DNA of 64,000 nucleotides from Streptomyces sp. NBC_01304. GTDB lineage: Bacteria > Actinomycetota > Actinomycetes > Streptomycetales > Streptomycetaceae. A model generated the notes under the pieces. It was given only the letters and a program-made list of their open reading frames with translations. It ran no database searches and was not told the DNA's origin. The stretch lies in the NCBI RefSeq assembly GCF_035975855.1, contig NZ_CP109055.1, positions 7,502,001-7,566,000 of the forward strand, written 5' to 3'. A program made the position numbers and the translations under genes. Positions 34,743 through 52,138 of this stretch are shown here, piece by piece; positions within the stretch are counted from its first letter, which is position 1, and every line of letters begins with the position of its first letter.

Positions 34743-34918
34743 GGGACAGGTCCGTAACGTCGGCCCCGCGCCACCTACAGCGTAGGTGAGCCTGTCACCC
34801 GCTTCCCGATCTCAGGGGCTGTGACCCGAGCAATGTGCAGGTTCTCCTGATCGGGCCCACCCGCATGAGGGCCCGCCGCTACCCTCCGCTTGTCGGCCAG
34901 TTGCGGGAGGGCGAGAGC

Positions 34919-36358
34919 ATGGTCCAGCAGACATGGAGCAGCGATCGCAGACTGACGGCGATCAGCAGAGCAAGTCTCTCGGTCCCTGCGCGGCAGGCCA
35001 TAGTCGACAAGCAGGTCCTGCCCGGCCTCGCCGTTCTTGACTACGGCTGTGGCCGTGGCGGCGATGTACGCGCGCTCCAGCAACTGGATTGCCAAGTAAC
35101 CGGCTGGGACCCGTTCTACCAAGCCGACACCAGGTTGGAGCCGGCTGACGTCGTCCTCCTCACCTACGTCCTCAACGTCATCGAAGACCCACAAGAGCGA
35201 CGCAAGACCCTGCAGGATGCGTGGGACCTCGCCGGAACAGTCCTCATCGCCTCTGCACGACTGACGTGGGAAAGGTCGAAGGTCAGGGGAGAGGCATTCG
35301 GTGACGGCCTGCTCACCAGCCGACAGACCTTCCAACACCTCTTCGGAGCAAGCGAGCTCCGCACCTACGTCGAGGAGGTGACCGGCGTACGGACAGTCTC
35401 CGCAGCACCAGGCATCGTCTACGCCTTCAAGGACGAGAGAGCGCGGCTCAGTTACCTTGCTCGACGGATCGTTCCGGATGCCGAGTGGCTTGCATCCGAG
35501 GACACGACCTCAGCGATCGCAGCAGTAGTTGATCACGTCGAACGCCGCGGGCGGCTGCCCCGGATGGAAGAAGTTCCCCAGCCCATGGCTGAGCTCCTCG
35601 GCCACCTACGCCCCAACGAGGTACGACGGCTCGTACGCGACTCTGCCGACGTCGGCAGAGTTGAAGAAGGTGGGAAGCGAACCACCCTCAACACGCTGCT
35701 CTTCCTCGCCGTCGAACTCTTCAACGGCCGCGGCCCCTTCAGTAGCCTCCCGCTCAGTGTCCAACTCGACGTCCGCGCGTTCTTCTCCTCCTACAAGGAA
35801 GCCTGCCAGCGATCCGACCGGCTTCTGCTCAAGCTGCGTGACGACACGTACATTCGCGGAGCAATGAATGCCTCCGCCGTCGGGAAGCTGACCCCGACCG
35901 CCCTCTACGTCCACCAGCGAGCAATCGACCGGATTCCCACAGTGCTACGCCTCTACGAGCACTGCGCCTCGATCGCCGCCGGCCGTCCGCAGGAATGGAC
36001 CTTGGCCAAACTCCGCCACCAGGGCCGTGGAGTGAGCTGGCTGCACTACCCGGACTTTGACACTGACCCGCACCCGCGGACGCTGTCCTCCTATCACGTG
36101 GAATTGAAGACGCTGGAGACGTCCTTCACCTCGTACGCAGAGTCCCTGAACCGACCCCTACTCCATCGGAAGCACGAATTTCTGGCCGAAGACGACCCAG
36201 ACGTCGAGCGGTACAAGAGGCTGACGGCGTCAGAGGTGAGGGCGGGCCTCTATGAGCACCCTCACCTCATCGGGACGGAGGATGGCTGGGAGAAGGAACT
36301 CGTTCGTTGCGGCCGGGCCCTTCGCGGACATCGGCTAGTACGCCGCACGGCAGGATGA
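34919..36358 (+). CDS. DNA phosphorothioation-associated putative methyltransferase
   Basis: A 479-residue protein from ATG 34919, preceded by GGGAGGG. The N-terminal Rossmann segment LDYGCGRGGDVRAL (~residues 40-53) binds S-adenosylmethionine, and a later VLLTYVLNVIED resembles a methyltransferase core. The long C-terminal half (e.g. FFSSYKEACQRSDRLLLKL, WLHYPDFDTDPHPRTLSS) is diagnostic of a family that accompanies dnd clusters. Its precise target is not established. It is the first gene of the island and converges with dndA, with only 4 nt between the stop codons. Confidence 0.86.
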   Translation: MVQQTWSSDRRLTAISRASLSVPARQAIVDKQVLPGLAVLDYGCGRGGDVRALQQLDCQVTGWDPFYQADTRLEPADVVLLTYVLNVIEDPQERRKTLQDAWDLAGTVLIASARLTWERSKVRGEAFGDGLLTSRQTFQHLFGASELRTYVEEVTGVRTVSAAPGIVYAFKDERARLSYLARRIVPDAEWLASEDTTSAIAAVVDHVERRGRLPRMEEVPQPMAELLGHLRPNEVRRLVRDSADVGRVEEGGKRTTLNTLLFLAVELFNGRGPFSSLPLSVQLDVRAFFSSYKEACQRSDRLLLKLRDDTYIRGAMNASAVGKLTPTALYVHQRAIDRIPTVLRLYEHCASIAAGRPQEWTLAKLRHQGRGVSWLHYPDFDTDPHPRTLSSYHVELKTLETSFTSYAESLNRPLLHRKHEFLAEDDPDVERYKRLTASEVRAGLYEHPHLIGTEDGWEKELVRCGRALRGHRLVRRTAG

Positions 36359-36362
36359 GCGA

Positions 36363-37505
36363 TCAGACCGAATCCGGCTGCAATGTCGCGATCAGGTTCG
36401 CCAGCTCCTCGACATCCAGGTCAGCTGCTTGGCTCGGGAACCAGGACATGCGGAGCCCGTTCTCTGCCGCGTCTTCGGGCAGACCCATGGCGGTCAGTAC
36501 GTGGCTGGGGGTGTACGAGGCGCTCGTGCACGCGGAGCCCGTAGCGACGGCTACGTGGTGGTTCAACTGGACAATGAGTGCCTCGGCATCAACGCCGTCA
36601 AAGGACAGGTTCAGGATGTGGGGGACAGTGTGGTCCTGATCGCCATTGATCTGGAATCGGGTCTTAGCGAGGGCAGCCAGGAGCCGGGAGCGGAGATCCG
36701 CTGCGTCCTTGCTCCACTTTCTGTGTTCCTTCTGGAAGATCTTCGCGGCCTCGGCCAGTCCCATGATCAGCGGTACAGGCAGTGTTCCGGGGCGTAGCTT
36801 CCGCTCCTGACCGCCACCGAACATGATCGGCTGCAGTGGCAGCCTGCCTGAGCTCCGACGGCGGGTGACCAGCATCCCGACGCCCTTCGGTGCGCCGATC
36901 TTGTGACCACTGATGCTGATCATGTCGATCGGAGCGGTCAGGTCCTCAGGTACCTTCCCGTATCCCTGTGCGGCATCCACATGCAGGTATGTCGGGGTCT
37001 CACGCAGCAGCCCAGCGAGCTCGGCCACTGGCTGGACGACACCCGTCTCGTTGTTCACGTGCATCAGAGAGACGAGGAGCGTGTCAGGGCGTAGCCGCTC
37101 CATCACTGCCTCGACCGAGACCCTGCCTGATACGCCAGGCTTGATGAAGTCGACTTCGAAGCCACGTGACTGCAGGTGCTCCAGGGGCTCGATCACCGCC
37201 TTGTGCTCGATCGCCGACGTGATGATGTGACGCCGACCACTCTGCTCGCCGTGGGGTGCAAGACCCAGCAACGCGATGTTGTTGCTCTCAGTGGCGCCAC
37301 TGGTAAAGATCAACTCGTCCGGTTCGGCGCCGACAGTGCTGGCGAGATAGTCGCGCGCTTGCTGCACTGCACGCTTCGCTCGGGTCCCGTAGTCGTGCGT
37401 CCGTGACCCGGCGTTCCCGAAGTCCTCGGTCATCCAGTGCAGCACCACTTCGGCCACGCGCGGGTCCACACGCGTTGTAGCCGCAGCATCGAGATACGTC
37501 ACCAC
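36363..37505 (-). CDS. dndA: Cysteine desulfurase DndA
   Basis: A ~380-residue NifS-like PLP enzyme. Key points are the N-terminal YLDAAATT, the Lys segment SGHKIGAPKGVG (Schiff base) and the catalytic Cys in ATGSACTSASYTPSHVL. It removes sulfur from L-cysteine and hands it to DndC for the DNA backbone. The start lies among tandem GTG codons at 37517-37502; GTG 37505 follows GGTGGGG. Unlike the other dnd genes it is on the minus strand, divergent from dndB. The shared 77-nt intergenic region carries a perfect palindrome at 37546-37567. Confidence 0.93.
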   Translation of the reverse strand: MVTYLDAAATTRVDPRVAEVVLHWMTEDFGNAGSRTHDYGTRAKRAVQQARDYLASTVGAEPDELIFTSGATESNNIALLGLAPHGEQSGRRHIITSAIEHKAVIEPLEHLQSRGFEVDFIKPGVSGRVSVEAVMERLRPDTLLVSLMHVNNETGVVQPVAELAGLLRETPTYLHVDAAQGYGKVPEDLTAPIDMISISGHKIGAPKGVGMLVTRRRSSGRLPLQPIMFGGGQERKLRPGTLPVPLIMGLAEAAKIFQKEHRKWSKDAADLRSRLLAALAKTRFQINGDQDHTVPHILNLSFDGVDAEALIVQLNHHVAVATGSACTSASYTPSHVLTAMGLPEDAAENGLRMSWFPSQAADLDVEELANLIATLQPDSV

Positions 37506-37545
37506 TAGCCCCACCACACCTTTGAGCGTTAATCCAGCACGTTCT

Positions 37546-37582: not shown

Positions 37583-38713
37583 GTGGGATCACCGTCATCT
37601 TCGCAGCTTGTCGACACCGCTACCTCCGCCGGCTTTGACTACATCTTTCCAGCCATCCGGGGCGTTCAGGCGGGTCGCGAGTTCTACGTGTCCATGTGCC
37701 CGCTGCGGCTCATCCCGAAGATCTTCCTCTTCGATGAGGACGAGCTGGCGCCAGAGGTTCGCGCCCAACGTGTCTTGAACAAGGGGCGACTTCCAGCCCT
37801 CACCCGCTACATCGTCGAGAACCCAGACGACTACGTCTTCAGCGCCCTCACTGCATCTGTCGATGGCGAGATGTACTTCGAGAGCATCGCCGACACTGGC
37901 ATGGGCATGCGTGCTGGCCAGATCCGCATCCCCATGGCTGCCCGCTTCCTGATCAACGACGGGCAACATCGACGGGCAGCCATCGAAGAGGCCCTGAAGG
38001 AGAACCCCGACCTCGGAGAGGAGACGATCGCCGTCGTCTTCTTCCACGACGCAGGGCTGGCTCGCTGCCAGCAGATGTTCGCCGACCTCAACCGGCACGC
38101 AGTACGCCCACCCCGTTCCATTGGCGTCCTGTATGACCATCGAGACGACCTGGCGATCATGGCCCGACTCCTGGCGATGAAGTCCCCTGTCTTCAAAGGG
38201 CACGTCGAGATGGAGAGCAGCACCCTTGCTCAACGATCCCGCAAGCTGTTCACCCTGAGTGCCGTCTACTCCGCCACCCAGTCCCTCCTGCAAGGGCTGG
38301 AGATCAAGAAGGAGAAGGCGCAGGAGCTGGCAGAGGCATACTGGGAGGCTGTCGACCTTGTGGTCCCAGAGTGGGGGATGGTACGCAAGCGTGAGCTCGC
38401 GGCTCCCGAGGTACGCAAGGACTACATCCACAGCCACGGCATCGCCTTGCACGCACTTGGCCGGATCGGGAACTCGCTCCTGCGGAATTCCGAATCGCCC
38501 CAGGTGTGGCATTCGAAGCTCAAGCTCCTGACTTCGGTTGACTGGTCCCGTATCAACCCAGATTGGGAAGGGCGCGCGCTGATCGGTGGACGTGTGTCGA
38601 AGAGCCACCAGAACCTGACCCTGACTGTGAACTACCTGCGCCGTCACATGAAGCTCCAACTCAGCCCAGAGGAGCAGCGTGTTGAGGACGCATACTCGCG
38701 AGGAGATGCATGA
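37583..38713 (+). CDS. dndB: DndB, DGQHR-domain regulator of phosphorothioation
   Basis: A 376-residue protein carrying the DGQHR signature at residues ~126-130 (LINDGQHRRAAIEEAL), with FADLNRHAVRPPRS further on, typical of DndB. In other systems DndB is dispensable for modification and controls transcription or modification frequency. It starts at GTG 37583 just after the dndA/dndB palindrome. It overlaps dndC by ATGA, so dndB-dndC are translationally coupled. It is one of three DGQHR proteins in the island. Confidence 0.92.
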   Translation: MGSPSSSQLVDTATSAGFDYIFPAIRGVQAGREFYVSMCPLRLIPKIFLFDEDELAPEVRAQRVLNKGRLPALTRYIVENPDDYVFSALTASVDGEMYFESIADTGMGMRAGQIRIPMAARFLINDGQHRRAAIEEALKENPDLGEETIAVVFFHDAGLARCQQMFADLNRHAVRPPRSIGVLYDHRDDLAIMARLLAMKSPVFKGHVEMESSTLAQRSRKLFTLSAVYSATQSLLQGLEIKKEKAQELAEAYWEAVDLVVPEWGMVRKRELAAPEVRKDYIHSHGIALHALGRIGNSLLRNSESPQVWHSKLKLLTSVDWSRINPDWEGRALIGGRVSKSHQNLTLTVNYLRRHMKLQLSPEEQRVEDAYSRGDA

Positions 38714-40203
38714 GCACCCCGAAGCCGTCGGCCCCCTTCCAGGGCAGGGCTCTCGCCGAAGTGGTCAACGAGCTCACGGAAGAGATCCGTGAGCTCTATA
38801 CGGCTGACGAGGTGCCTTGGGTCATCGGCTACAGCGGAGGCAAAGACTCCACTGCTGTACTCCAACTCGTTTGGCTTGCCCTTCAGGGGCTGACTGATGA
38901 ACAGCGCACCAAGCCCGTGCACGTCATCAGTACGGACACACTGGTCGAAAATCCGGTGGTGGCCGCCTGGGTCTCCCAGTCCCTCGACACGATGGGGAAG
39001 GCAGCGAAGGAGCAAGGGCTGCCGATTGAGCCGCACCGCCTGATCCCTGAGGTGAAGGACACCTTCTGGGTCAACCTCATTGGCAAGGGCTACCCAGCTC
39101 CCCGCCCCAAGTTCCGGTGGTGCACGGAACGATTGAAGATCAAGCCGTCCAACGCGTTCATTCGTCGAGTCGTGCGCCGGCACGGTGAGGCGATCCTCGT
39201 CCTCGGCATTCGAAAGACCGAGAGTCAGGCTCGTGCCCGCGCCATGGCGAAGCACGAGAAGCGCCGTGTGCGTGACCGGCTCTCTCCCAACGGCAATCTG
39301 CCGAACTCCCTCGTCTACAGCCCTATCGAAGCGTGGGGTACAGAAGAGGTCTGGATGTTCTTGATGCAGTACTCCAACGCGTGGGGGCATCGGAACAAGG
39401 ATCTGCTGACCATGTACCAGGGCGCCTCCGAGGACTCGGAGTGCCCCTTGGTAGTGGACGACACCACGCCTTCCTGTGGCGACAGTCGCTTTGGATGCTG
39501 GACTTGCACCCTTGTGGACAAGGACAAGTCGATGACTGCCATGATCCGCAACGATGAGGAGAAGGAGTGGATGCGTCCCCTCCTGGAACTCCGAAATCTG
39601 CTGGACGACGTGTCGACAGAGAAGGAGGACCGCGACTTCCGGCGGATGAACGGCAACGTTCAACTCTTCCACGACGGAGTTATTCAGGGCCCATACACGC
39701 AGGAAGCACGTCAGAAGTGGCTGACGAAGCTTCTGAACGCTCAGACCCGCGTGAGGCAGACCGCACCGGAGAGCGTCAAGGGTATCGAGCTGATCTCGGA
39801 GGCAGAGCTGCATGAGATCCGCCGCATCTGGGTGTTCGACAAGCATGAAGTCGAAGACACGCTGCCGGCGATCTATGAGGCAGAGACGAGCGAGAAGTTT
39901 CCCGGACGACCTCTTGACGAGCAACTGGTGCTCGGGGCGGAGGAGATCGACCTCCTCAAGGAAGTGTGCGACGGCGACGATATCCACTTCACGATGACGC
40001 GTGAACTCCTCGCAGTCGAGCGGAAGCACCGGACCATGACGCGCCGCTCTGGGCTCTTCAAGGAACTGGAGAAGACGGTTAAGAAGGGGTTCTACGAAAA
40101 CGAAGACGACGCCCTTCAGTTCGCGAAGCGTAAGCAGGAGATCCGAGACACCGCCCCGACCTACGTGACGCTGGACGAAGAGACCACCGATGCTCCTTCA
40201 TAA
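38710..40203 (+). CDS. dndC: DndC, PP-loop/iron-sulfur DNA sulfur modification protein
   Basis: A 497-residue protein with the PP-loop ATP pyrophosphatase motif GYSGGKDST at ~40-48, as in PAPS reductases. Cysteines at FRWCTERLK and in the cluster SECPL, SCGDSRFGCWTC are the iron-sulfur ligands expected of DndC. DndC activates DNA and mediates sulfur transfer to the non-bridging oxygen. It starts at ATG 38710 within the dndB stop (ATGA) and overlaps dndD by 14 nt. Confidence 0.94.
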   Translation: MSTPKPSAPFQGRALAEVVNELTEEIRELYTADEVPWVIGYSGGKDSTAVLQLVWLALQGLTDEQRTKPVHVISTDTLVENPVVAAWVSQSLDTMGKAAKEQGLPIEPHRLIPEVKDTFWVNLIGKGYPAPRPKFRWCTERLKIKPSNAFIRRVVRRHGEAILVLGIRKTESQARARAMAKHEKRRVRDRLSPNGNLPNSLVYSPIEAWGTEEVWMFLMQYSNAWGHRNKDLLTMYQGASEDSECPLVVDDTTPSCGDSRFGCWTCTLVDKDKSMTAMIRNDEEKEWMRPLLELRNLLDDVSTEKEDRDFRRMNGNVQLFHDGVIQGPYTQEARQKWLTKLLNAQTRVRQTAPESVKGIELISEAELHEIRRIWVFDKHEVEDTLPAIYEAETSEKFPGRPLDEQLVLGAEEIDLLKEVCDGDDIHFTMTRELLAVERKHRTMTRRSGLFKELEKTVKKGFYENEDDALQFAKRKQEIRDTAPTYVTLDEETTDAPS

Positions 40204-42181
40204 CATTGCACTTCATGACTTTGGCGCCTACCGCGGCAAGCAGTCCCTCGACCTGAGCGTTAAGCCCGGGAGGCCGATCGTCTTGATCGGAGGCCTCAAC
40301 GGGTGCGGCAAGACAACCTTGCTGGATGCCATCCAGTTGGTGCTGTACGGCCATCGGGCAAGGTGTAGCGGACGCGGGAATCGCTCCTACGACGCCTACC
40401 TACGCGAGAGCATCAACCGCAAGGCGAACGCAGCTGAGGGCGCGGAGATCGCCCTGGAGTTTTCCGTCGTTGTGGATGCTCAGGAGCGGCACTACCGGGT
40501 TGTCCGCAGTTGGCACATCAGTGGTAAGCAGCTCAAAGAATTCCTGAACGTCATCGTCGATGGCCAGTATGACCGGATCCTCAGTGAGGGCTGGGCTGAC
40601 CACGTAGAAGACATCCTTCCGCTCGAAGTAGCCTCGCTGTTCTTCTTTGATGGCGAAAAGATTGAGTCGCTCGCAGACCCTGAGCGGGCAGCTAGCGTCA
40701 TCGAATCTGCTGTTCACTCGCTACTTGGCGTGAGCACAGTGGAGCAGCTGCGAACAGATCTTGTCGCGCTAGTACGACGACAGCGGCTTTCCAGCGAGGA
40801 CCAGGCCGTCCTCGACCAGATCCGCGCCCAGGAAGCCGAGCACGAAGCGGCTAGGCAGGAAATCGCGGACCGGAAGCAAACCTTGGGCAGTGTCCGGTCC
40901 CGGTGTGATCGGCTGCAGGTGCAACTCGACAAGGTAGAGAAGGCATTCGAGCGCGCTGGCGGAAAGCTCTTTGAGCGCCAGAAGGAACTCGAGAGCAATC
41001 GGAAAGCAATTGATGAGCGTCTGGCAGCCCAGCGTGCTGCCCTGCGGTCCCTTGCTGCAGGACCGTTGCCTCTTCTGATGCTTCCGCAGCAGTTGGCCAA
41101 GCTCCGCGAGCAGGCCGGCCGCGAGAAGGATGCTGACGATGCCACGCGGGTCGTAGGCGTCCTGGAGGATCGCGATGCGTGGCTTCTCGACCACCTTCCT
41201 GCGTCTGTGACGGCTGCCGCACGCACGGCATTGAAGAAGAAGCTGGCATCGGATCGTCAGAAGCGCGAGAGCGCAGCGGAACTCAAGCAGAGCCTCGACC
41301 TTCCGAGTGACGCGCTTGAGCAGCTTTCGGCTCTCGATGAAGCACTCTCCCGGGATGCATCCCGAGCTCGCGAGCTCCTCAAGGAGTCCGCGGACACGAC
41401 TGACCGTCTCGACGACGCCGATCGTCTCTTGGCTGGTGTCCCGGACAAGAAGCTGATCAAGGATCTTGTTGAGGAGCGCAACGAAGCGATTGACGCCCTC
41501 GCCGTTGAGAAGGACAAACTCCGGCGTGGCGAAGAGCAGTTGGAGGAGCTCAAGACCCGACACGCTCGAATCGGTGCCGACCTGGAGCGAGCGCAGCAGA
41601 AGCGGGTCAAGACGCTCATTGAGATCGAGGAGCTCGAGCGAATCGTCACGTTCGCTGGGAAGGCACGAGACACGCTGGAGAAGTTCGGCGAGGCTCTGCT
41701 GCGGCGCCACATCAGCCGTCTCGAAGTCGCTGTCCTCCAAAGCTTCAAGACGTTGATGCGCAAGAGCGGCCTCATCCACGATCTGCGGATCGACACCGCC
41801 AAGTCCAACCTCACCCTCGCGGACGCTGACGGGGAACCCGTCGACCCCGGACGGCTCAGCGCGGGCGAACGGCAGCTACTTGCCATCTCGCTGCTCTGGG
41901 GCCTGGCCAAGGTTGCCGGGAACAAGCTGCCCAGTGTGATCGACACGCCTCTGGGACGCCTCGACAGCCAACACCGTCAGCACCTGGTCGACCGCTACTT
42001 CCCGAACGCTGGTCGGCAGGTACTCCTGCTGTCCACAGATGAGGAGATCGACGAGAATCTCCTCAGCCGTCTGAAGCCATCCCTCGCACACACCTACACC
42101 CTTGTTCACGACGACACGTCGTTCACCACCACCGTCGAGGCTGGGTACTGGTGGACAGCAGGAGCCCCGCATGTCGCTTGA
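40190..42181 (+). CDS. dndD: DndD, SMC-like ATPase of phosphorothioation
   Basis: A 663-residue SMC/Rad50-like ATPase. Walker A is GGLNGCGKTTLLDAIQLVLY at ~34-53. A long coiled-coil region of Glu/Lys/Ala-rich helices spans about 220-520. The C-terminal signature and Walker B are LSAGERQLLAISLLW and PSVIDTPLGRLDS. It works with DndC and DndE, probably providing strand manipulation or nicking energy. It overlaps dndC by 14 nt and dndE by 11 nt. Confidence 0.93.
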   Translation: MLLHNIALHDFGAYRGKQSLDLSVKPGRPIVLIGGLNGCGKTTLLDAIQLVLYGHRARCSGRGNRSYDAYLRESINRKANAAEGAEIALEFSVVVDAQERHYRVVRSWHISGKQLKEFLNVIVDGQYDRILSEGWADHVEDILPLEVASLFFFDGEKIESLADPERAASVIESAVHSLLGVSTVEQLRTDLVALVRRQRLSSEDQAVLDQIRAQEAEHEAARQEIADRKQTLGSVRSRCDRLQVQLDKVEKAFERAGGKLFERQKELESNRKAIDERLAAQRAALRSLAAGPLPLLMLPQQLAKLREQAGREKDADDATRVVGVLEDRDAWLLDHLPASVTAAARTALKKKLASDRQKRESAAELKQSLDLPSDALEQLSALDEALSRDASRARELLKESADTTDRLDDADRLLAGVPDKKLIKDLVEERNEAIDALAVEKDKLRRGEEQLEELKTRHARIGADLERAQQKRVKTLIEIEELERIVTFAGKARDTLEKFGEALLRRHISRLEVAVLQSFKTLMRKSGLIHDLRIDTAKSNLTLADADGEPVDPGRLSAGERQLLAISLLWGLAKVAGNKLPSVIDTPLGRLDSQHRQHLVDRYFPNAGRQVLLLSTDEEIDENLLSRLKPSLAHTYTLVHDDTSFTTTVEAGYWWTAGAPHVA

Positions 42182-42548
42182 GACAGTTCGCCTCTCGCAG
42201 ACGGCGAAGGACCAACTCGTCTGGTTGAAGCGCAACACCGGCATGACTCAGTGGAACGACCTGTGCAGGTGGGCTCTGGCGCTGTCACTTCGAGACTCGT
42301 CCACGCCCTTGGTAAAGGAAGTCGTGACCGACTCCAACGTCGAGATGACCTGGAAGACGTTCACTCACCCGTACGGAGATATCTACCTCGCCCTGCTCAA
42401 GCAGCGATGCCTCATGGACGGTGAAGAGCTGTCGGACGAAGCCATCGCGCGGACGCTGACGGTGCATCTGCACCGTGGTATCGGCTACCTGCACGGTCGT
42501 CCCGACCTTCGGTCCGTCGAACAGCTCGTCTCCACCGCCACGGGATAG
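42171..42548 (+). CDS. dndE: DndE, DNA-binding phosphorothioation protein
   Basis: A 125-residue protein from ATG 42171, six bases after GGAG. MSLETVRLSQTAKDQLVWLK and TGMTQWNDLCRWAL match DndE, a tetrameric nicked-DNA-binding protein of about this size. It completes the DndA-E set. The gene is followed after 17 nt by a strong terminator at 42566-42593, which ends the dndBCDE transcript. Confidence 0.9.
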   Translation: MSLETVRLSQTAKDQLVWLKRNTGMTQWNDLCRWALALSLRDSSTPLVKEVVTDSNVEMTWKTFTHPYGDIYLALLKQRCLMDGEELSDEAIARTLTVHLHRGIGYLHGRPDLRSVEQLVSTATG

Positions 42549-42565: not shown

Positions 42566-42593
42566 GCCCGCCCCGCCTGCAGGCGGGGCGGGC
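42566..42593 (+). terminator. Terminator after dndE
   Basis: A perfect 12-bp stem, GCCCGCCCCGCC (42566-42577) with GGCGGGGCGGGC (42582-42593), around TGCA, followed by TTCTG. It separates the modification operon from the downstream restriction-like genes, implying independent expression of the two halves. Confidence 0.8.
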
Positions 42594-42844: not shown

Positions 42845-43315
42845 ATGATCAGCCACCCCGTCGAGGGGGCTATTGCCGCGCTGCAAGAGAGCGCGCTCCG
42901 CACCTTCGACAGCTATCAACTCGACAGGATCGACCGAGCCCTCGACGAGCTTCTGCGCAACCCCTCTGATGAATCGACGCCGGCGGAGTACCGCGTTCGG
43001 TCAGCCATGGGACACGCATACGAGGTACTCGAGCGCCGCAAGACCATCACACCTCTCGTCTCCCTCTGCGCAGAGCACACCGATCAGGGTGTGCTCGACT
43101 GGGACTATTCGCTGATCGAGATCAACGAATGGCTGTGCAGCGAACCCGGAATCTCCCTGGAGCAGCGAGCTCTGCTCCAGGCGCTCGCACGTGGCGAGGA
43201 CGCCACGACCCTCGCGCAGCGTGAGGGGCTTCCTGTAGCTCGAGTACGAGAACGGATCAGCCGCGCCCGCAGAGCAGGCCGTCAGCTCTGGAAGACGTCG
43301 GTGCTGGCTGCATGA
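42845..43315 (+). CDS. Small HTH protein with sigma-region-4-like domain
   Basis: A 156-residue protein from ATG 42845, preceded by GGAG at 5 nt. The C-terminal ~50 residues (SLEQRALLQALARGEDATTL, then REGLPVARVRERISRARR) have the form of a sigma-factor region 4 helix-turn-helix. No region 2 is seen, so it is not a complete sigma factor. The N-terminal ~100 residues are helical and unrecognised. It overlaps the GIY-YIG gene by ATGA and heads the operon after the dndE terminator. A regulator of this operon is the likely role. Confidence 0.6.
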   Translation: MISHPVEGAIAALQESALRTFDSYQLDRIDRALDELLRNPSDESTPAEYRVRSAMGHAYEVLERRKTITPLVSLCAEHTDQGVLDWDYSLIEINEWLCSEPGISLEQRALLQALARGEDATTLAQREGLPVARVRERISRARRAGRQLWKTSVLAA

Positions 43316-43719
43316 AACCGAGACTCATCGGTCTGCGCCCATGGCTTGTACGCGCACTCATTCCGCCGCAGCACATTGGTACGTACGTGCTCTACACGGC
43401 GGATGGCGTCCCGAGCTACATCGGCCGCAGCGATACAGACCTCAGGCGACGGCTTCTCCGGCACTGTACAAACCGGCGAGGCACGTACTTCACCTACGAC
43501 GTCCACCACAGCGCCCTGAACGCCTTCGAGGTGGAATGCGCCCTGTTCCACACGCTGGCGCCCGCGATCACCAATCGCATACACCCGGACCGCCCCGCCC
43601 ACCAAAAGGTCTGCTGCGTGTACTGCCGTGCCACGCAGCGCACCGTGCGTCGCCATCGCCTTGCACCCCAGGCACCAAAGACCGATCCATCTAAACGCCC
43701 GAGTGAGGACCTCCGATGA
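43312..43719 (+). CDS. GIY-YIG nuclease
   Basis: A 135-residue protein with a GIY-YIG domain: GTYVLYTADGVPSYIGRS carries the two tyrosine motifs, the Arg helix is DLRRRLLRH, and the catalytic Glu is probably in ALNAFEVECALFH. A C-terminal CCVYC and basic tail follow. GIY-YIG domains cut DNA in a metal-dependent way. It is coupled by ATGA to both the HTH gene and the GHKL ATPase gene, so it probably acts with the ATPase. This arrangement next to dndA-E suggests restriction of DNA without phosphorothioate, which is inference. Confidence 0.78.
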   Translation: MKPRLIGLRPWLVRALIPPQHIGTYVLYTADGVPSYIGRSDTDLRRRLLRHCTNRRGTYFTYDVHHSALNAFEVECALFHTLAPAITNRIHPDRPAHQKVCCVYCRATQRTVRRHRLAPQAPKTDPSKRPSEDLR

Positions 43720-45455
43720 CATCCCCCCTGTTCTTGGCCCCAGATGACCACCGCGGCAACATCATCCAGGTTGACCGTGCCCTGGAATCCATGCGTGATG
43801 CCGGCTTTGATCTCACAGCTGCCATCGGCGAGCCCTTGGACAACTCCATCCAGGCGGAAGCCACTCTGATGCGTGTCATCCCGGTGTACGGCGCTCGCAA
43901 GAAGAGCATCGAGAAGCTCATCATCTCCGATAACGGCGTCGGTATCGATCCATCGATCATGCACAACGTGCTGTCCATCGGCTACAGCGCCCGATACAAC
44001 GAACGGGACGGCCTGGGACGCTTCGGCATGGGGCTGAAGCTCGCCGGCCTGAGCCTGGGCAAGCGCATCGACATCTACAGCAAGCGCGCCAACAGCCCCA
44101 CGATCCACCACAGCTACGTAGACCTCGAAGAGGTCCGCGAAGGTAAGCAGCAGTACATCAGCACTGACGAGGTCCAGAGCTGGCCTGAAGAGGCTGCCAG
44201 GCAGATGGTCGGCAGGGACAGCCGCCCACTCGCATCCGGCACAGTTGTGATCTTCAGCAAGATCGACCGACTCTCCACCGGCGGCACGTACGGCACGTCG
44301 CTGGAAGAGAAGATCTCTGACCTTCGCAAGTTCATCGCACGCGCATTCCGGACCTACATCGACACGGGGCGCACCATCGAACTCGAAGGCAAGGAGGTCA
44401 CGCTCCACGACCCCCTCTTCCAGCGAGACAACCCCCGCATCATCAGCAAGTACAAGTCGCAGAAGCTTGACCCTCGAGGCACGATCATCGAGGACGAAGA
44501 TATCGAGATCGACGGCCACAAGGTCCACGTAACAGTCGCCTTGGTCCCCGTGGAATTCCGGCCCTGGGCTGGAGCAGGCGGTGCGGTAGACCACCGGGGC
44601 GATGACATCCGGGACTTCCAGATCAACGCCGAGAACGCGGGCAAGATCAGCATTCTGCGCAACGGCCGCGAGATCTTCTACGACACCATCCCTCGGTTCC
44701 TTGACGCGACACGGAACGACAAGGCCATCCGGTATGTCGCCATTGAAGTGACGTTCCCTGCGGAGCTGGACGAGTACTTCCAGGTTCGCAACGTCAAGCG
44801 CGGAGCCGAGCCGGTAACCAAGCTTCGGAATCAACTGAAGGACTGGTTGAAGAGGCCCGTCCGCGTAGCCCGCAAGCAGATCCACGAGCACTGGATTGAG
44901 GTGGACACACGCAAGCGGCTCGAGAGTGGCCCTCACGACGCAAGCATGGCTACCGCGGCGCGGGCGAATCCAAGCCTTCCTCACGGGCTTGCCGGCCGGA
45001 CAGTCACTCCGGAACAAGAAGAGCAGATCGTCCTGGACGCCGCGGAGGACATGGGGCTCGACCCCGAGGTCGATGTAGCGAAGGTCGACGCACTACGCGA
45101 ACAGATCCGGACTAAGCCCATCACCCTCTTCGATGCGAGTTGGCCCGGCAAAGAGTTCATCGTGGTCCAACACCTCAACGGCAAGGCACTGGTCAAGTTC
45201 AACCTTCGGCATGCGTTCTTCAAAGAGGTCTACGTTCCCCTGAAGAAGCTCGCCGATCAAGGTACAGAAGGGATGACCCCCGAGGACATGCTCGACCTGG
45301 CTCGTCGCGCCGAGACTGCCATCGACCTGCTCTTCATGGGCTACGCACGCGCGGAATCCATGTCGCAGAACCCAGAAGAGGACTACAGCCAACTGCGCAC
45401 CCACTGGGGCATGTTCACCGAGGCGATGCTCAAGGAAGAACTTAAGGATCAGTGA
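43716..45455 (+). CDS. GHKL (Hsp90/MutL-like) ATPase
   Basis: A 579-residue protein with the Bergerat ATP-binding fold: the N box AIGEPLDNSIQAEA at ~35-48, G1 DNGVGID, and G2 GRFGMGLKLAGLSLG. A middle region with VEFRPWAGAGGAVDHRG and a C-terminal helical half (EQEEQIVLDAAEDMGL...) are not assigned. GHKL ATPases of the MutL/MORC type dimerise on ATP and act on DNA. Coupled by ATGA to the GIY-YIG nuclease, it is a plausible motor or switch for it. The gene ends at a strong hairpin terminator. Confidence 0.8.
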   Translation: MTSPLFLAPDDHRGNIIQVDRALESMRDAGFDLTAAIGEPLDNSIQAEATLMRVIPVYGARKKSIEKLIISDNGVGIDPSIMHNVLSIGYSARYNERDGLGRFGMGLKLAGLSLGKRIDIYSKRANSPTIHHSYVDLEEVREGKQQYISTDEVQSWPEEAARQMVGRDSRPLASGTVVIFSKIDRLSTGGTYGTSLEEKISDLRKFIARAFRTYIDTGRTIELEGKEVTLHDPLFQRDNPRIISKYKSQKLDPRGTIIEDEDIEIDGHKVHVTVALVPVEFRPWAGAGGAVDHRGDDIRDFQINAENAGKISILRNGREIFYDTIPRFLDATRNDKAIRYVAIEVTFPAELDEYFQVRNVKRGAEPVTKLRNQLKDWLKRPVRVARKQIHEHWIEVDTRKRLESGPHDASMATAARANPSLPHGLAGRTVTPEQEEQIVLDAAEDMGLDPEVDVAKVDALREQIRTKPITLFDASWPGKEFIVVQHLNGKALVKFNLRHAFFKEVYVPLKKLADQGTEGMTPEDMLDLARRAETAIDLLFMGYARAESMSQNPEEDYSQLRTHWGMFTEAMLKEELKDQ

Positions 45456-45461
45456 CTCCGT

Positions 45462-45492
45462 GGTGACGGACGGCCTGGCGCCATCCGTCACC
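45462..45492 (+). terminator. Terminator after the GHKL ATPase gene
   Basis: GGTGACGGA (45462-45470) and TCCGTCACC (45484-45492) form a perfect 9-bp outer stem, extended by an inner GGC/GCC pair across one mismatch. It lies 7 nt after the stop codon and separates the HTH/GIY-YIG/ATPase operon from the DGQHR gene at 45675. Confidence 0.72.
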
Positions 45493-45674
45493 GCTCTGGG
45501 GCGCGTCTACCTTGGCGTGTTCTGTGGCGGAGATCGTTTCATTTTCTGCATCAGGTCCCGGAGGCGCGGGGCGACCTGCAGGATGTCGTGGGAGGGCGCA
45601 GCAAGCATCGCGCCGTAAGCCGGCGCGACGGCCGCTGGCATCGCAACTGAAGCAGCGTAGGAAGGCAGTGAAGG

Positions 45675-47846
45675 ATGTTTGGCTCGGGCAATGGACTCAC
45701 GTTCCGCGACTACGTGCAGGGAACGTGGGGGAGCTTCGACACTCCGGCGGGGAGGGTCGACTACATCATGACGAAGGCGCGACTTGGTGGTGATGCCAAC
45801 ACCCCCGAGCGGCAACTCACCAAGAACCTGGCCCCTGTTCGAGAAGTCATGGATGCCGGCGATCTTGACTTCAATCAGCTCCTACAACGCGACCTCGATG
45901 ACCACCGCGTAGCCGTCAATCTGATCCCCTACCTGCTCAAACCCCAGACCACAGGGCCCGCGTTCTTCCCGCCGATCGTGGCCGTGGTGCTTCCCTTCCA
46001 CAACAAGCGCCCCACAGCGTTTCCCATGCTGGGGGAGGTGACGTCCATAAGCGCCGATGACGCCAACTGGCAGGAGCAACGTGCGGGAACTGCGTTCCAG
46101 GTCCACCGTCTCCTCGGCTCCGATGGACAACCGCACGGGGCAAATGTGGGCAAGCTGTGGTGGAACCGTGCCGAGTCAAGTCTCGTTGTTCTTGACGGGC
46201 AGCACCGTGCCATGGCACTTCTTGCGATCGAGCGCACCCTGACCAACTCGTGGCAGGACACCTCCGCGGTCAAGTACCGCTCCTTCTACGAACATCAGGT
46301 ACGGCGCGTGCTGGAGCAACACGGGGCTGGCGAACCTGACCTGTCGAAGGTCGAAGTACCGGTCACTGTTTGCTGGTTCCCGGATCAAACCGGGGCCGGT
46401 TCCCGGCCCCACGAAGCTGCGCGGAAGCTATTCGTTGATGTCAACAAGGAGGCGCGCCCGCCGAGCGAGTCCCGCATCATCCTGCTCTCGGACGCTGAAC
46501 TCTCCAACGTCCTCACACGAAGCATGCTCAGCGAGCTGCGCAGCCGTAACGATGCCTCCTACGTTCCGCTGTACGCGGTGGAGTACGACAACCCGGAAGT
46601 CAACAGCCACCGCCCGGCACGATGGTCGGTGCTCACCAACATCAACCTGCTCAAGATGGCCGTAAATCGCTGCATCTTCGGGCCGTCGAAGTACCTCACC
46701 AACGTCGCGCAGGGGATCTCGGGCAAGGAGAGCGAGCAACAGCGCGATGACTTCATGCGCAGTCAGCTTGAGGTGGACACCCTTCTCGAGAGGTACTTCG
46801 AAGACGGAGGCATCCCCTTCGACCGGGACTCTCTCGGAGACAAGCAGTTCCCCCTCGGCAAGATGGAAGCGATCAGCGCGAGGTTCAAGGAGACGTGGGG
46901 CAGGGCGATCCTGACGCTGTTGTCGAGGACCACCCCGTATGCGGCACACGCCAGCGCGCTGACCAAGCTGAAAGATGACTGGCATGTCGCCGATACGTTT
47001 GCGGCTCTGGCTCACGATGCACTCTTCGGCGGGGTGGGCGTGTTCTGGACCCTGCGTGACAGCTACGACCACTACATGGAGCACAGGGACAACGCGGATC
47101 GCCGGCTGCCCAAGTCGGACGTCATCCGCGCCTGGGAAGCACTCAAAGGCAAAGAGGAGGACTTCGACCAGTACCGTGCGCAAGAGTATCTGCGGTCGAC
47201 CCGTCCCGAGCGCGTCAAGCGTTGCAAAGATGCGTACGGAGTCCTCAACACTCACGCCTGCCAGCTCGGCCTCGTCATGACGATGGGCTCACTCTGGGAA
47301 GTGCGAAAGACGCAACCCGGCGGTGTCGAACTCAAGGATCTCCCGGCATTCGCGGAAGCCCTTGTCGAGGCATGGAACGCCTTCTTCCAGATCGAGCACA
47401 GCCGGACTCGTGACCGAAAGGTCGCTTTCAACAAGACTGGCATCTCGAACCCGATCAACCAGATCGGGAGCATGGAGTCCGCCCAAGCGGTCTACTTCCG
47501 CTACTTCTGGCTGCAGGCACTGGCGGTCCCCACAGCATGGCCCCACGTGGCCCAGTGGCTGCCGGACCGCGAAGAGTTCGACATTAAGCTCGGCGAAGCC
47601 CGGCGCATGTACCTGGACTTGTGCATCAAGCAGCAGCTGAAGGCCCTCAAGACGAACCAGCCCACCGCGCAGGAGAGCGATCTCCGACCTGTAGCCGAGA
47701 AGCAAGCGAACACCGCGCTCAAGAAGGCCCTCAAGGACTGGTTCGAGGTGTCGGAGGACGACTTCGAAGCGTGGCTGAGCGAGCCGATCCGCCGCAGCAA
47801 GCAGGGGGAACTCGACCTGGACGATGCTGGTAGGGAAGCGGAGTAG
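45675..47846 (+). CDS. Large DGQHR-domain protein
   Basis: A 723-residue protein with DGQHRAMALLAIE at ~174 onwards, the same signature as DndB but in a protein twice as long. FVDVNKEARPPSESR after it fits the family's second conserved block. The C-terminal 400 residues are helical, with Lys/Glu-rich ends, and are unassigned. The ATG at 45675 follows GAAGG. It may sense or bind modified DNA, or regulate the nearby nucleases, by analogy with DndB. It has no obvious nuclease motif. It could belong functionally with the GHKL ATPase, 220 nt upstream. Confidence 0.65.
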   Translation: MFGSGNGLTFRDYVQGTWGSFDTPAGRVDYIMTKARLGGDANTPERQLTKNLAPVREVMDAGDLDFNQLLQRDLDDHRVAVNLIPYLLKPQTTGPAFFPPIVAVVLPFHNKRPTAFPMLGEVTSISADDANWQEQRAGTAFQVHRLLGSDGQPHGANVGKLWWNRAESSLVVLDGQHRAMALLAIERTLTNSWQDTSAVKYRSFYEHQVRRVLEQHGAGEPDLSKVEVPVTVCWFPDQTGAGSRPHEAARKLFVDVNKEARPPSESRIILLSDAELSNVLTRSMLSELRSRNDASYVPLYAVEYDNPEVNSHRPARWSVLTNINLLKMAVNRCIFGPSKYLTNVAQGISGKESEQQRDDFMRSQLEVDTLLERYFEDGGIPFDRDSLGDKQFPLGKMEAISARFKETWGRAILTLLSRTTPYAAHASALTKLKDDWHVADTFAALAHDALFGGVGVFWTLRDSYDHYMEHRDNADRRLPKSDVIRAWEALKGKEEDFDQYRAQEYLRSTRPERVKRCKDAYGVLNTHACQLGLVMTMGSLWEVRKTQPGGVELKDLPAFAEALVEAWNAFFQIEHSRTRDRKVAFNKTGISNPINQIGSMESAQAVYFRYFWLQALAVPTAWPHVAQWLPDREEFDIKLGEARRMYLDLCIKQQLKALKTNQPTAQESDLRPVAEKQANTALKKALKDWFEVSEDDFEAWLSEPIRRSKQGELDLDDAGREAE

Positions 47847-48072: not shown

Positions 48073-49335
48073 ATGGCCGAGCCCGCACGGTTCATCGAAA
48101 CACTTGCCGACCGCGTTGAACACGTGTTGAGGAAACGCCAACTTGGCCCGCTCTCAGTGAAAGAGCTCATTACGGAACTCGGTCCGGAGACAGACACCTC
48201 CGCCACGACCCTGGCAGCAGAACATCAATTGGTTCAGGCCCTCCGAGAAGACGAGCTCAGGCGCGCGGCGCGCGGCAAGCGCCCCCGTTTCGGTATCACC
48301 GACGGGGAATCGGTGCGTCTTCGTCCACCGGGCAACCCGGCAGAAGCCGCGGTAGAAGAGTGGAACGAGAGGGTCAAGCTGGACCTCCTTGAGCAGCTCA
48401 GGGAGTGCGACCCGATCGTGTTCGAACACATCGTGGCGCAGCTACTCATCGCGATCGGATACGAAGAGGTCCGTGTCACCAAGCGATCGAACGACGGCGG
48501 CGTCGATGTGCACGCCATCCTGTCTGCCCGCGGCGTGACGCGTGTCCCCACTGCGTTGCAGGTGAAGCGGTGGCGGAAGCCTGTGGGGCGGCCGGACGTA
48601 CAACAACTGCGCGGCTCCCTCAAATCCACCCAGCAAGGCGTCATAGTCACGACCAGCAGCTTCTCGAGACCTGCCCTTGAGGATGCAGCCCGCCAGGACG
48701 GTAGCCCAGTCCATCTGATTGACGGACAAATGCTCGCAGACTTGATGGTCGAACACGGTCTGGGGGTCCAGACAGCTCGAGTTGCGTTCTTCTCCCTGGA
48801 CGAGCAACGCCTGACGGGCGGTTCACCTGCGGCCGCGGCTAGGGCAACCGCTGAAGGTGACCAGGTATCGCCTGGACTTCGGCAAGGGAGCCAGATGTAC
48901 TTCCTAGCCCAACTGCCAGGAGGCCGAAACGCCGACTACCTGTCCACACTGGCGATCATGGCTCAGCTGGCGGAGGAGCAGCCGACGCTAGACGAATACA
49001 TCGCAGTATTCCAAGAGCACTTCCCAAACATCTCGCGGGTGGATGAAGCACGACGCCGGATGCGAGTCCTCCTCTCCCTGGGCCTGGCCGAGGTCGAGAG
49101 CAATCACGTCACACTCACCTTCCTTGGACGACGCTTCCTCGACGACAGAGATCCGCGACTGCTGCGCGAAGCCTTCTTGGCCCGGATCGCGGGGGCGGCC
49201 GAGGTGCGGGCGCTCGTCGCAGACGCTGCCGACGACCGAGCAAGAAGGCAGCGAGTCCTTGATGATCCGCCCGCCGGGCTCAGCTCAACCCAAGCCGCAC
49301 TGGTGCTCAGGTGGCTCACTCAACTCGGCTTGTGA
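48073..49335 (+). CDS. Mrr-type restriction endonuclease
   Basis: A 420-residue protein from ATG 48073, preceded by GGGGAGAG. Residues ~1-100 look like a winged helix (VLRKRQLGPLSVKELITELG). The central Mrr catalytic fold is clear: FEHIVAQLLIAIGYEEV, NDGGVDVHAIL with the catalytic Asp, ALQVKRW with the QxK pair, and DVQQLRGSL, then GVIVTTSSFS. The C-terminal region (~280-420) is helical and unassigned. Mrr enzymes typically cut modified DNA. In a phosphorothioating host this could be a partner or a separate defence. It stands alone between two DGQHR genes. Confidence 0.82.
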   Translation: MAEPARFIETLADRVEHVLRKRQLGPLSVKELITELGPETDTSATTLAAEHQLVQALREDELRRAARGKRPRFGITDGESVRLRPPGNPAEAAVEEWNERVKLDLLEQLRECDPIVFEHIVAQLLIAIGYEEVRVTKRSNDGGVDVHAILSARGVTRVPTALQVKRWRKPVGRPDVQQLRGSLKSTQQGVIVTTSSFSRPALEDAARQDGSPVHLIDGQMLADLMVEHGLGVQTARVAFFSLDEQRLTGGSPAAAARATAEGDQVSPGLRQGSQMYFLAQLPGGRNADYLSTLAIMAQLAEEQPTLDEYIAVFQEHFPNISRVDEARRRMRVLLSLGLAEVESNHVTLTFLGRRFLDDRDPRLLREAFLARIAGAAEVRALVADAADDRARRQRVLDDPPAGLSSTQAALVLRWLTQLGL

Positions 49336-49489: not shown

Positions 49490-51184
49490 GTGAGCGAGAT
49501 AACTCGCACCTATCAGGCGTTTCGTACACTACAGACCTCTGAGAGTAAGCCGTTGGTGCTGTTCGCTGCCCCGGCTGTAGACATTGACGAATGGGTAGGG
49601 GTCCCCCAGCGCCGCAGACTCGGAGATGAAGAGACTTCCGGATTCCAGCGTGAAGAAGACCCGCGTCGGATTCGAGAACTGACCAGGTTCTTCGGTGACC
49701 GGCATAATGTTGCGCAGAATCCACTCCTTGCCGCGCTCCAAGACTCTAAGAGAATTGTGTTCGAAGAGCTTGAGCCAGGCTCTCCGTTTGGCGAGTTGAG
49801 GATTACCTACGAGGACTACTCGAAGGTGTCCATGTTGAAACTCCTAAAGCGGCTTGTTGTTCGCCTTGAAGAGCGAGTTGACTCGCTTAACGATAGCGTC
49901 GTGGATCAGACTCGGGTGGCCAGACTGCTCGAACTGGAGAGTCAGCGCATCGATGCGGAGAACGGCGATGAGGGCGAAGAGCTAAACGGAGATGTCACAA
50001 ATGAATACACTGGTGGCGATGATGGCGATGACGCCGCCACAGTGTTGCTTGCCGAAGAGACGCGCATCGTAGAATTCTATACCGAGCTCAAGGGGAGAAT
50101 TAAGGTATTGGAGCATTTGGGCATCGAAGATGCCGATGCCGTCCAGGGATTCACGAAGAGCGCCCTGCTGGGATACCTGAAGCCTGTGGTGCTTGTTGAC
50201 GGGCAGCACAGGCTGCGCGGGGCCGTTATGTCGGCGCGTTCCTTGTCGAAGACCGCTCAGGGAGAGGACAACATTCTCAACGCAGTTGAGGATGGCTTGG
50301 ATCCGGCCGAGGCCGAGCGGCAGGTAATCCGTGAGTTGTCGCGGAAGCTGCCAGTCTCACTCCTCATGGATGAGAGTCCGAGCGAGCACGTGTTTCAATT
50401 TGTTGTCGTGAACCAGAAGGCGATTCCCATGGGGAAGGCGCTGCTTGGGACCATTGTCTCGACCAGCCTCAGTCGCGACGAGCTTCAACAGGTTGCTAAG
50501 CGTCTTCAAGGTGCGGGCATCGAGCTAGAGGACTCCCAAGCTGTCGCCTACTTGACGAGGGACGAAGCGAGTCCGTTCCGGAACGTTGTTCAGACTGGAA
50601 TGGGCGGCGATCGCCCCGACCTGCTCAAGTGGAGTGTCCTTCAAGGGCTTGTGTCGATTTTCCGGAAGTTGCAGGGAGGCCGGCCTTACCATGCGAAGGT
50701 TGACTACGCGAAGGCATGGAGGGAGAACTACTTCCCTGAATGCGGCCTGGTGTCCGGAGATTCGGAATCGGAACGCCTTGAAGACTGGTCGCGTCCTGAC
50801 GGCCCATGGCGGGAAGTGTTCATTCGCTTCTATTCCAAGATCCGCGACTACTTTGGGGATCCCGTCGACGTTGATACGTTCAACGGATGGGGTAGCACAT
50901 CCGAGAGTAATCTGTTCAATAAGATTTCATTGACCATTCTGGCGTGCGACTACTTCGACTTCATCTATACGCAGGGTGAACCGCTTGCGAGTCTTGAAGA
51001 TTTTGAAGCTTCGCTCGACAAATGGTTGATGGGTGGGCGAGTGAATGCATCATACTTCAATAGGGATTGGAAGCTGGAAGGGGCGAAGAAGGATCAGTTG
51101 ATAGTGAAGCAGCTGTGGTCGCAGAACTGGCATGAATATCGAAAAGTCCCGTCGAATGTCCTGCCTAGGAAATTTAAGCCCTAG
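49490..51184 (+). CDS. DGQHR-domain protein (low-GC)
   Basis: A 564-residue protein from GTG 49490 after GGGGGA. The signature VVLVDGQHRLRGAVMSARS falls near residue 237. FVVVNQKAIPMGKALLGT about 60 residues later is the second conserved block. The acidic segment TGGDDGDDAATVLL lies before it. Codon third positions are visibly richer in A/T than in the other island genes, indicating separate acquisition. It is followed after 6 nt by the HNH gene, so the two form an operon. No catalytic motif is evident; a DNA-sensing or regulatory role like DndB is inferred. Confidence 0.65.
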   Translation: MSEITRTYQAFRTLQTSESKPLVLFAAPAVDIDEWVGVPQRRRLGDEETSGFQREEDPRRIRELTRFFGDRHNVAQNPLLAALQDSKRIVFEELEPGSPFGELRITYEDYSKVSMLKLLKRLVVRLEERVDSLNDSVVDQTRVARLLELESQRIDAENGDEGEELNGDVTNEYTGGDDGDDAATVLLAEETRIVEFYTELKGRIKVLEHLGIEDADAVQGFTKSALLGYLKPVVLVDGQHRLRGAVMSARSLSKTAQGEDNILNAVEDGLDPAEAERQVIRELSRKLPVSLLMDESPSEHVFQFVVVNQKAIPMGKALLGTIVSTSLSRDELQQVAKRLQGAGIELEDSQAVAYLTRDEASPFRNVVQTGMGGDRPDLLKWSVLQGLVSIFRKLQGGRPYHAKVDYAKAWRENYFPECGLVSGDSESERLEDWSRPDGPWREVFIRFYSKIRDYFGDPVDVDTFNGWGSTSESNLFNKISLTILACDYFDFIYTQGEPLASLEDFEASLDKWLMGGRVNASYFNRDWKLEGAKKDQLIVKQLWSQNWHEYRKVPSNVLPRKFKP

Positions 51185-51190
51185 CGCGAT

Positions 51191-52138
51191 ATGGATACTC
51201 GGGGAATTAAAAACTTCTACGGTGCGCTCGGTGAGGCGCTGCCGAATCGGTGGTCAGAAGATGGCGTGCGAAAGATTTCCCATCTGGCCACCCCCGAGGG
51301 TCTGCTAGGAAAGAATGAATGGATTCTCCGAGCCGACTACTCTATGACTGTAGGGCGCTGGTTCATCGAGGGACTTGTCGACCTCGGGAGGTATGCGCGC
51401 AATAGCGAGAACATTGGGCATCTATTTAAAGAGATGTCTGCCTGTCTGAGGGAGCTCGACCCAAGCGCGCCACAGGACGAAGTCAAGGCGACTGCACGTC
51501 AGCTTGCGTCGTTTGCATGGAGGGAAGTCGAAGCCAGGCGGGCGGCGGGGCGGCCAAATATTGATCGTGCGCTTAAGAATGCTGTCTGGTTCCGAGATGA
51601 GCCTATGCAGCGTTGCTATCTGTGCGGGTATAGATTCTCGACGCATGCGAAGGATCGATTTCTGGGGAGATCTGCTATTCCTTTGAAGACCCACAACCTG
51701 GTCGACTTCACTCGCCCAAGAGGGGTAAAGCCGAGACATCTGGGTGTGGAGCTGGATCATGTAATCCCTGTCGCTGAAGGTGGCAGAACGGATGAAGATA
51801 ATCTCAAGCTGGCGTGTGGCTGGTGCAACATTGTCAAGAGCAGTCTGTGGAGTGTCTACGACGCTAAGGCTTGGTCAGCGGGAGTGATAGATCACCCGTC
51901 TCTCGGCCTCACTTCAGTGCCCCAACCACTCTGGATGCTCCGCATAGTGGCAACGCGCGCGCGATGCGAGTCGGCCGGGGGGTGTAGTGCACGTCTGACC
52001 ACAAACGAACTCTTCGTTGCTCCTCGCAACCTCAAAGGAGCGTTGACGCCAACCAATCTCATGGTCGTCTGTCGGCAGCACGACCCCTGGGCGGCGCACC
52101 GCCTCATCAGCCCCACCTTGCTAGCGAGGAGGAGGTAG
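51191..52138 (+). CDS. HNH endonuclease
   Basis: A 315-residue protein with a zinc-bound HNH site. CYLCGYRF gives the first Cys pair, LGVELDHVIPVAEGG the catalytic His, and TDEDNLKLACGWCN the Asn and second Cys pair. A later segment with CESAGGC and VVCRQHD may form another zinc site. It shares the low-GC character of the DGQHR gene upstream. Its stop is only 17 nt from the convergent large-terminase stop, marking the island's right edge. A PT-related nuclease is possible but not shown. Confidence 0.8.
   Translation: MDTRGIKNFYGALGEALPNRWSEDGVRKISHLATPEGLLGKNEWILRADYSMTVGRWFIEGLVDLGRYARNSENIGHLFKEMSACLRELDPSAPQDEVKATARQLASFAWREVEARRAAGRPNIDRALKNAVWFRDEPMQRCYLCGYRFSTHAKDRFLGRSAIPLKTHNLVDFTRPRGVKPRHLGVELDHVIPVAEGGRTDEDNLKLACGWCNIVKSSLWSVYDAKAWSAGVIDHPSLGLTSVPQPLWMLRIVATRARCESAGGCSARLTTNELFVAPRNLKGALTPTNLMVVCRQHDPWAAHRLISPTLLARRR

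Follow-up and report, generated by a model that had tools for sequence, protein, structure and literature searches.

In a 64,000-nucleotide stretch of Streptomyces sp. NBC_01304 (contig NZ_CP109055.1, positions 7,502,001 to 7,566,000; hereafter the window), three coupled genes for a helix-turn-helix (HTH) protein, a GIY-YIG nuclease and a GHKL ATPase follow a dnd cluster for DNA phosphorothioation (PT), a modification first found in Streptomyces. This HTH/GIY-YIG/GHKL unit is a conserved, PT-linked module. Most likely it serves PT modification as a restriction or effector partner with a new composition, and it is probably a way, so far undescribed, to tell unmarked foreign DNA from self and attack it. 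On balance, we lean towards the reading that the unit, usually with a large protein designated DGQHR1, is an exchangeable restriction or effector module coupled to PT and built on a paraMORC-type GHKL ATPase. The unit follows dnd across actinobacteria, keeps its active sites and occupies a slot common with GmrSD/DndI-like enzymes, which makes it a concrete, testable candidate for dnd-linked restriction in carrier genomes without DptF. It would also connect two fields that stand apart in the portions of the literature covered here, namely MORC/MutL-like ATPases in restriction and the sulfur marking of DNA.

The linkage to PT genes carries most of the argument. A species-wide scan of 84,980 species genomes yielded 30 GHKL relatives (the scan loci; L numbers denote loci and G numbers genomes of the genus sample). 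In 24 of them dnd genes adjoin the unit, inside the fetched stretch in 23 and, in L048, in a cluster directly adjoining that stretch. In three more (L056, L059 and L063) the genome carries dnd on a different contig, and two (L064, 1.9e-72; L066, 2.9e-89) lie beside genes for DUF4007, which we take to be SspB. The last, L062, is a 3.5-kb contig of a metagenome-assembled genome with no DndC over the cut-off. Across Actinomycetota the unit accompanies dnd genes and, in rare cases, Ssp-type ones; a few relatives come from cyanobacteria, Bacillus and Acidobacteria. The background is far lower: DndC exceeds its cut-off in 18 of 392 genus genomes (4.6%), and 5 of these 18 are solitary DndC-like genes. 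GHKL matches above 200 bits occur in four genus genomes (G221 at 34% identity), all of which have DndC, while among 112 genomes with weaker GHKL matches only, DndC was found in 4, each time on another contig. In the genus samples, no full-length HTH or GIY-YIG protein occurs apart from the unit: matches above 200 bits are confined to G000, G097 and G347 for HTH (3/392 genomes) and to G000 and G097 for GIY-YIG (2/295), G126 holding a 25-bit fragment. A GHKL protein matching that of the window at 97% is present in Streptomyces regalis (L042), and the same 97% match recurs in G097. The strong link between the trio and dnd that the earlier note had proposed as its check is therefore there. The trio adjoins dnd in 24/30 loci, but it is not exclusive to dnd, given the two relatives with Ssp-type genes and the CxC/Pbe-type helicase in some carriers. 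Chance neighborhood was rejected on the 24/30 linkage and the contrast with weak GHKL matches.

It could be argued that the unit is an autonomous anti-phage system merely co-residing with dnd in defense islands. Such a passenger would account for the loci without dnd in the fetched stretch (L032, L056, L059, L062 and L063), and the accessible part of PMC2292703 places GHKL proteins in many restriction-modification settings. However, 24 linked loci out of 30, three further genomes with dnd and two with Ssp-type genes are far over the 4.6% DndC background, and weaker GHKL matches show no dnd linkage, so that we find this explanation highly improbable. As a separate observation, two more distant GHKL relatives (about 26–27%) lie on plasmids of Pannonibacter (L036) and Photobacterium (L034), their neighbors being either Ssp-like genes (cysteine desulfurase, DUF4007, ATPase, PAPS-reductase) or a PAPS-reductase gene, which suggests a wider GHKL–PT link. 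Five solitary DndC-like genes (L113–L117), 63–64% like the window's, have no other dnd gene in the flanking ~9 kb to each side.

The arrangement of unit and dnd varies. The unit stands on the same strand after dndE in 13 of the 24 linked loci (L042–L046, L049–L052, L054, L055, L067 and L070). In L058, L061 and L065 it follows the methyltransferase gene, CxC genes intervening in L065. It faces the dnd cluster in L047, L048, L053, L057 and L071, precedes dnd in L068 and L069, and in L060 neighbors the dndA gene of an opposed cluster. In L047, L048 and L061 the GHKL protein is 67–68% like that of the window, yet DndD is just 36–37% alike. This varied gene order, together with one GHKL clade beside two distant dnd lineages, indicates that the association formed repeatedly, which argues for function; purely vertical hitch-hiking with one dnd lineage was rejected on the same two-lineage pattern.

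In the window, whose genome comprises 10.99 Mb in 4 contigs, all three open reading frames lie where the earlier note had placed them: HTH (42845–43315, 156 aa), GIY-YIG (43312–43719, 135 aa) and GHKL (43716–45455, 579 aa), all on the plus strand, with ATGA overlaps at 43312 (HTH/GIY-YIG) and 43716 (GIY-YIG/GHKL). Homologs of the HTH protein share its start at 42845; an in-frame ATG also lies upstream at 42812. The position right after dndE holds too: dndBCDE occupies 37583–42548 on the plus strand (DndE, TIGR03184, 125 bits; DndC, TIGR03183, 692 bits), with dndA upstream at 36363–37517 on the minus strand, and 296 bp separate dndE from the HTH gene on the same strand. The idea that terminators bound the unit fared less well. 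Strong plus-strand hairpins lie between dndE and the HTH gene (42566–42593, z −3.40; putative terminator) and 3′ of the GHKL gene (45460–45494, z −3.49; putative terminator or attenuator), but both lack a T-run and neither was listed by a simple terminator scan. The second is not the border of the unit, because the next gene, DGQHR1 (45675–47846, plus strand, 723 aa), stays with the unit in 17/30 scan loci and in L039.

The GHKL protein consists of GHKL and S5 modules (residues ~1–400) followed by a C-terminal domain (402–579), matches PF13589 at 69.5 bits and contains the Bergerat-fold motifs (ExxDN, DxGxG and the glycine box), with E39, D42, N43, D72, G74, G76, G101, G104, G106, T176 and K361 invariant in 37/37 GHKL sequences, so its initial description as a GHKL ATPase is well founded. 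The MORC-specific S5 motif GhXhhpXXRhl, as given in the part of PMC2292703 at hand, is matched by 0/27 GHKL members, and MORC proper was rejected as its class. A GHKL plus S5 module that lacks the MORC motif and is encoded with nucleases corresponds to paraMORC. In the accessible sections of Iyer, Abhiman and Aravind 2008 (PMC2292703), MORC/paraMORC proteins of restriction-modification likewise combine GHKL and S5 with intact motifs, and some of them have a further domain at the C-terminus; paraMORC operons include nucleases, and some have SF2 helicase neighbors with an N-terminal HKD domain, as in CxC loci here. Those sections differ in linking them to methylases, helicases and VSR/HNH/REase nucleases, with no PT link described and "GIY-YIG" appearing 0 times. 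All 27 GHKL members also match PADLOC MzaB of the MZA system (best 7.1e-18; residues 23–236 in the window protein), but the window protein reaches 64.5 bits against an NCBIfam cut-off of 850; no search was made for other Mza genes.

The call of a GIY-YIG nuclease is likewise upheld. The window protein scores 23.2 bits with PF01541, narrowly above the cut-off of 22.6, and has the GIY…YIG core of the GIY-YIG (URI) family with what we take to be the catalytic Arg and Glu and the family His/Asn positions, besides a C-terminal NxxHPxxP…CxxC signature. Y25, Y36, G38, R39, R47, H51 and E75 are kept in 26/27 aligned rows and N88 in 27/27, the single odd row being a 31-residue fragment from L066. A complete gene is present in 23/30 scan loci, L066 giving that 31-residue weak match, and the gene is absent from six (L046, L053, L054, L059, L068 and L071). 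Since HTH and GHKL stay in these six, they form the core and the nuclease looks exchangeable. The HTH–GIY-YIG junction permits a 4-base overlap in 19/23 loci, including Bacillus L064, where GHKL stands first; GIY-YIG–GHKL overlaps are less common. Among 72,556 plasmid records there is one GIY-YIG match, on a Nocardiopsis plasmid also holding HTH and GHKL.

The same nuclease invites another explanation, in which HTH and GHKL restrain GIY-YIG until an invader blocks Dnd, whereupon the freed nuclease cuts all DNA. Translational coupling of a small, standalone nuclease to a DNA-binding protein would fit such a back-up suicide effector, and the part of PMC10853773 consulted makes a general proposal of this kind for standalone nucleases, URI included, at Dnd locus edges. 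However, in 13/24 linked loci the unit is not at a loose edge but immediately follows dndE on the same strand, and HTH and GHKL persist without the nuclease in 6/30 loci, which is unexpected for a nuclease–inhibitor set. We regard this explanation as unlikely.

The HTH protein has a conserved N-terminal part and a sigma-70-region-4-like helix-turn-helix. In the window it has no Pfam match and a weak NCBIfam sigma match (E 0.023), but Sigma70_r4_2 is matched by 6/26 family members at E ≤ 0.05 (best 5.5e-6), for which reason the label "sigma-region-4-like" originally given to it is fair. It is present in 29/30 scan loci, L066 having GHKL without it. Sigma-70 region 4 or Lsr2-type DNA-binding proteins recur next to PT systems; in the CxC loci L048 (14603–16834) and L040 (8406–10121), a large protein with one of these domains lies beside the HKD helicase.

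DGQHR1, a large DGQHR/DndB-like protein, belongs to the unit as its fourth gene in the close clade. The three-gene unit of the earlier note is thus right in coupling HTH, GIY-YIG and GHKL, but DGQHR1 has to be added in that clade and GIY-YIG is dispensable in the 6/30 loci. DGQHR1 scores under its family cut-offs (PF14072, 21.1 against 29.1 bits; TIGR03187, 32.4 against 58.85 bits). It is ParB-fold-like and, by its motif, a candidate reader of PT marks. In four Streptomyces dnd loci (L106, L108, L109 and L112), a GIY-YIG-like protein of 237–240 aa is paired with DGQHR1 and there is no GHKL; DGQHR1 may be a shared partner of two different GIY-YIG nucleases.

The slot after dndE was compared in 13 loci of the genus sample with a dndCD cluster. 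It holds the unit with DGQHR1 in 3; a GIY-YIG-like protein with DGQHR1, and an HKD helicase at the edge of the stretch, in 4; GmrSD/DndI-like proteins with CxC in 2 (GmrSD-type in L104/L105); a DGQHR2–HNH pair with CxC in 1; and an Lsr2-like protein, HKD helicase and CxC in another. In G221, whose contig ends in the dnd cluster, a distant GHKL is accompanied by an Lsr2-domain protein, HKD helicase and CxC ATPase, and one further contig ends after dndE. According to the portion of PMC11662687 available, DndI has been tested by experiment as a PT restriction partner, so the other tenants of the slot are fair candidates for PT restriction. DptF (TIGR03238) is absent from 31/31 carrier genomes searched, most of them drafts, while a positive-control plasmid gave 525 bits; TIGR03237 was found in 0/31, a search without a positive control. 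The carriers searched therefore gave no DptF/DndF that would point to DndFGH. The HKD-SF2 helicase of CxC/Pbe is strong in 13/31 carriers and weak in 1, and the window's own genome has no match at E 1e-40 to that of L040, which leaves PbeABCD/CxC without its helicase there. In Catenulispora (L068), a DUF262-like reading frame recognized by eye (7302–8996, minus strand) lies between the methyltransferase gene and dndA, beside a GIY-YIG-less HTH–GHKL pair.

The contents of this slot also bear on whether HTH and GHKL serve modification as an ATP clamp, either by assisting DndCDE in the choice or upkeep of PT sites or by remodeling DNA there, with the nuclease a dispensable add-on. Retention of HTH and GHKL where GIY-YIG is lost, and the occurrence of the unit with two different dnd lineages, are consistent with such an accessory, as is the looping of DNA between recognition and cut sites proposed for paraMORC proteins in the accessible part of PMC2292703. 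However, 10/13 genus dnd loci have no unit, and plasmid records contain GIY-YIG in one and a long DndC match in 33, which suggests that modification can do without the unit; elsewhere, GmrSD/DndI-like nucleases fill the slot. We consider an accessory role very unlikely.

Several observations weigh against a PT-coupled restriction or effector module. The unit is missing from 10/13 genus dnd loci, and because GIY-YIG is missing in 6/30 loci, its cleavage is not essential to the module; both facts speak against a simple three-part restriction enzyme. GHKL and Dnd distances correlate (Mantel r 0.50 for DndD and 0.60 for DndC, p ≤ 0.0002; DndC–DndD 0.95), which means that shared descent explains some of the linkage and that the 30 loci are not independent cases. 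In three genomes the unit is unlinked from dnd, and on the Nocardiopsis plasmid L032 it stands without dnd genes in the fetched plasmid stretch. Finally, the case for DGQHR1, itself below family cut-offs, as a PT reader draws solely on the DGQxR motif in common with DndI, as described in the part of PMC11662687 at hand.

How might a PT-coupled module of this kind work? MutL/MORC-type GHKL proteins close on DNA as ATP-dependent dimeric clamps. By analogy, the HTH protein would bind DNA and recruit the GHKL protein, which would close on DNA as such a clamp and license the co-encoded GIY-YIG nuclease, or a substitute, to nick it. PT marks, sensed perhaps by the ParB-like DGQHR1 or by GHKL itself, would release or inhibit the complex, so that unmarked incoming DNA would be cut and PT-marked self DNA spared. 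The ATP-gated cleavage of unmodified DNA suggested at the outset is plausible by comparison with DndFGH/DndI. More speculatively, and with considerable doubt, paraMORC GHKL and HTH may be a general PT-reading clamp, scanning DNA as an ATP-dependent ring released at PT marks and otherwise licensing interchangeable nucleases (GIY-YIG, Mrr-like enzyme or HKD helicase). If true, it would serve Dnd and Ssp modification alike, represent a MutL–MutH-like logic of restriction that takes a DNA backbone mark as its signal, and offer a possible model for the origin of epigenetic mark reading by MORC proteins.

Literature searches gave no paper naming the HTH/GIY-YIG/GHKL arrangement within the portions covered, including PMC8092258, PMC8011034 and PMC12704722, consistent with the earlier note's inability to assign it to a named defense system. 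DndFGH, SspFGH and PbeABCD/CxC resemble it as restriction or effector partners of PT modification. SspFGH, in the text available, is described with nothing beyond a Walker A motif and an FtsK-like part and with "GHKL" 0 times, and was set aside as a relative. IscS-DndBCDE-DndI (PMC11662687, in part) also has a single-module PT restriction partner beside dndBCDE, in which an NTPase (ParB-like DUF262, DGQQR) regulates a nickase, whereas our unit has a GHKL ATPase and a GIY-YIG nuclease on separate chains and the DGQHR protein separate as well. Rakesh, Aravind and Krishnan 2024 (PMC10853773), in the sections consulted, list URI (GIY-YIG) among nucleases near DndDE and suggest alternative restriction partners to DndFGH, but GHKL, MORC, MutL and HSP90 appear 0 times in the main text, and the sections consulted describe no GHKL partner. 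VcSduA, a Shedu with a GHKL domain, has an ATPase hypothesized to control a nuclease in anti-phage defense, but the accessible part of PMC12137116 gives it a fused DUF4263 nuclease instead of a GIY-YIG partner and no PT link. CMoRE is a modification-dependent GIY-YIG restriction enzyme, but a single protein with its own sensing domain that cuts 5hmC/5ghmC DNA; "GHKL", "ATPase" and "phosphorothioat" occur 0 times in the available part of PMC12923530.

Further modules surround the unit in the window. Upstream lies a putative DNA phosphorothioation-associated methyltransferase (34835–36358, plus strand; TIGR04096, 530 bits). After dndE, three modules are stacked: the unit with DGQHR1, an Mrr_cat restriction endonuclease-like gene outside the conserved unit (48073–49335, plus strand; 102 bits), and a separate pair of DGQHR2 (DpdB-like) and HNH (49490–52138, plus strand). 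Among loci mapped, the Mrr-like gene, DGQHR2 and HNH occur together only in L042, L070 and L072; the DGQHR2–HNH pair also follows dnd without the unit in L110. The block from methyltransferase gene to HNH is flanked by phage portal and terminase large-subunit genes (32943–34742 and 52156–53721, both minus strand) and, being enclosed by them, looks like cargo in a prophage head module; beyond the portal gene are scaffold, decoration and major head genes. Homologs of both flanking genes are present in S. regalis L042, and the methyltransferase-to-HNH block recurs on the IMG/VR contig L072.
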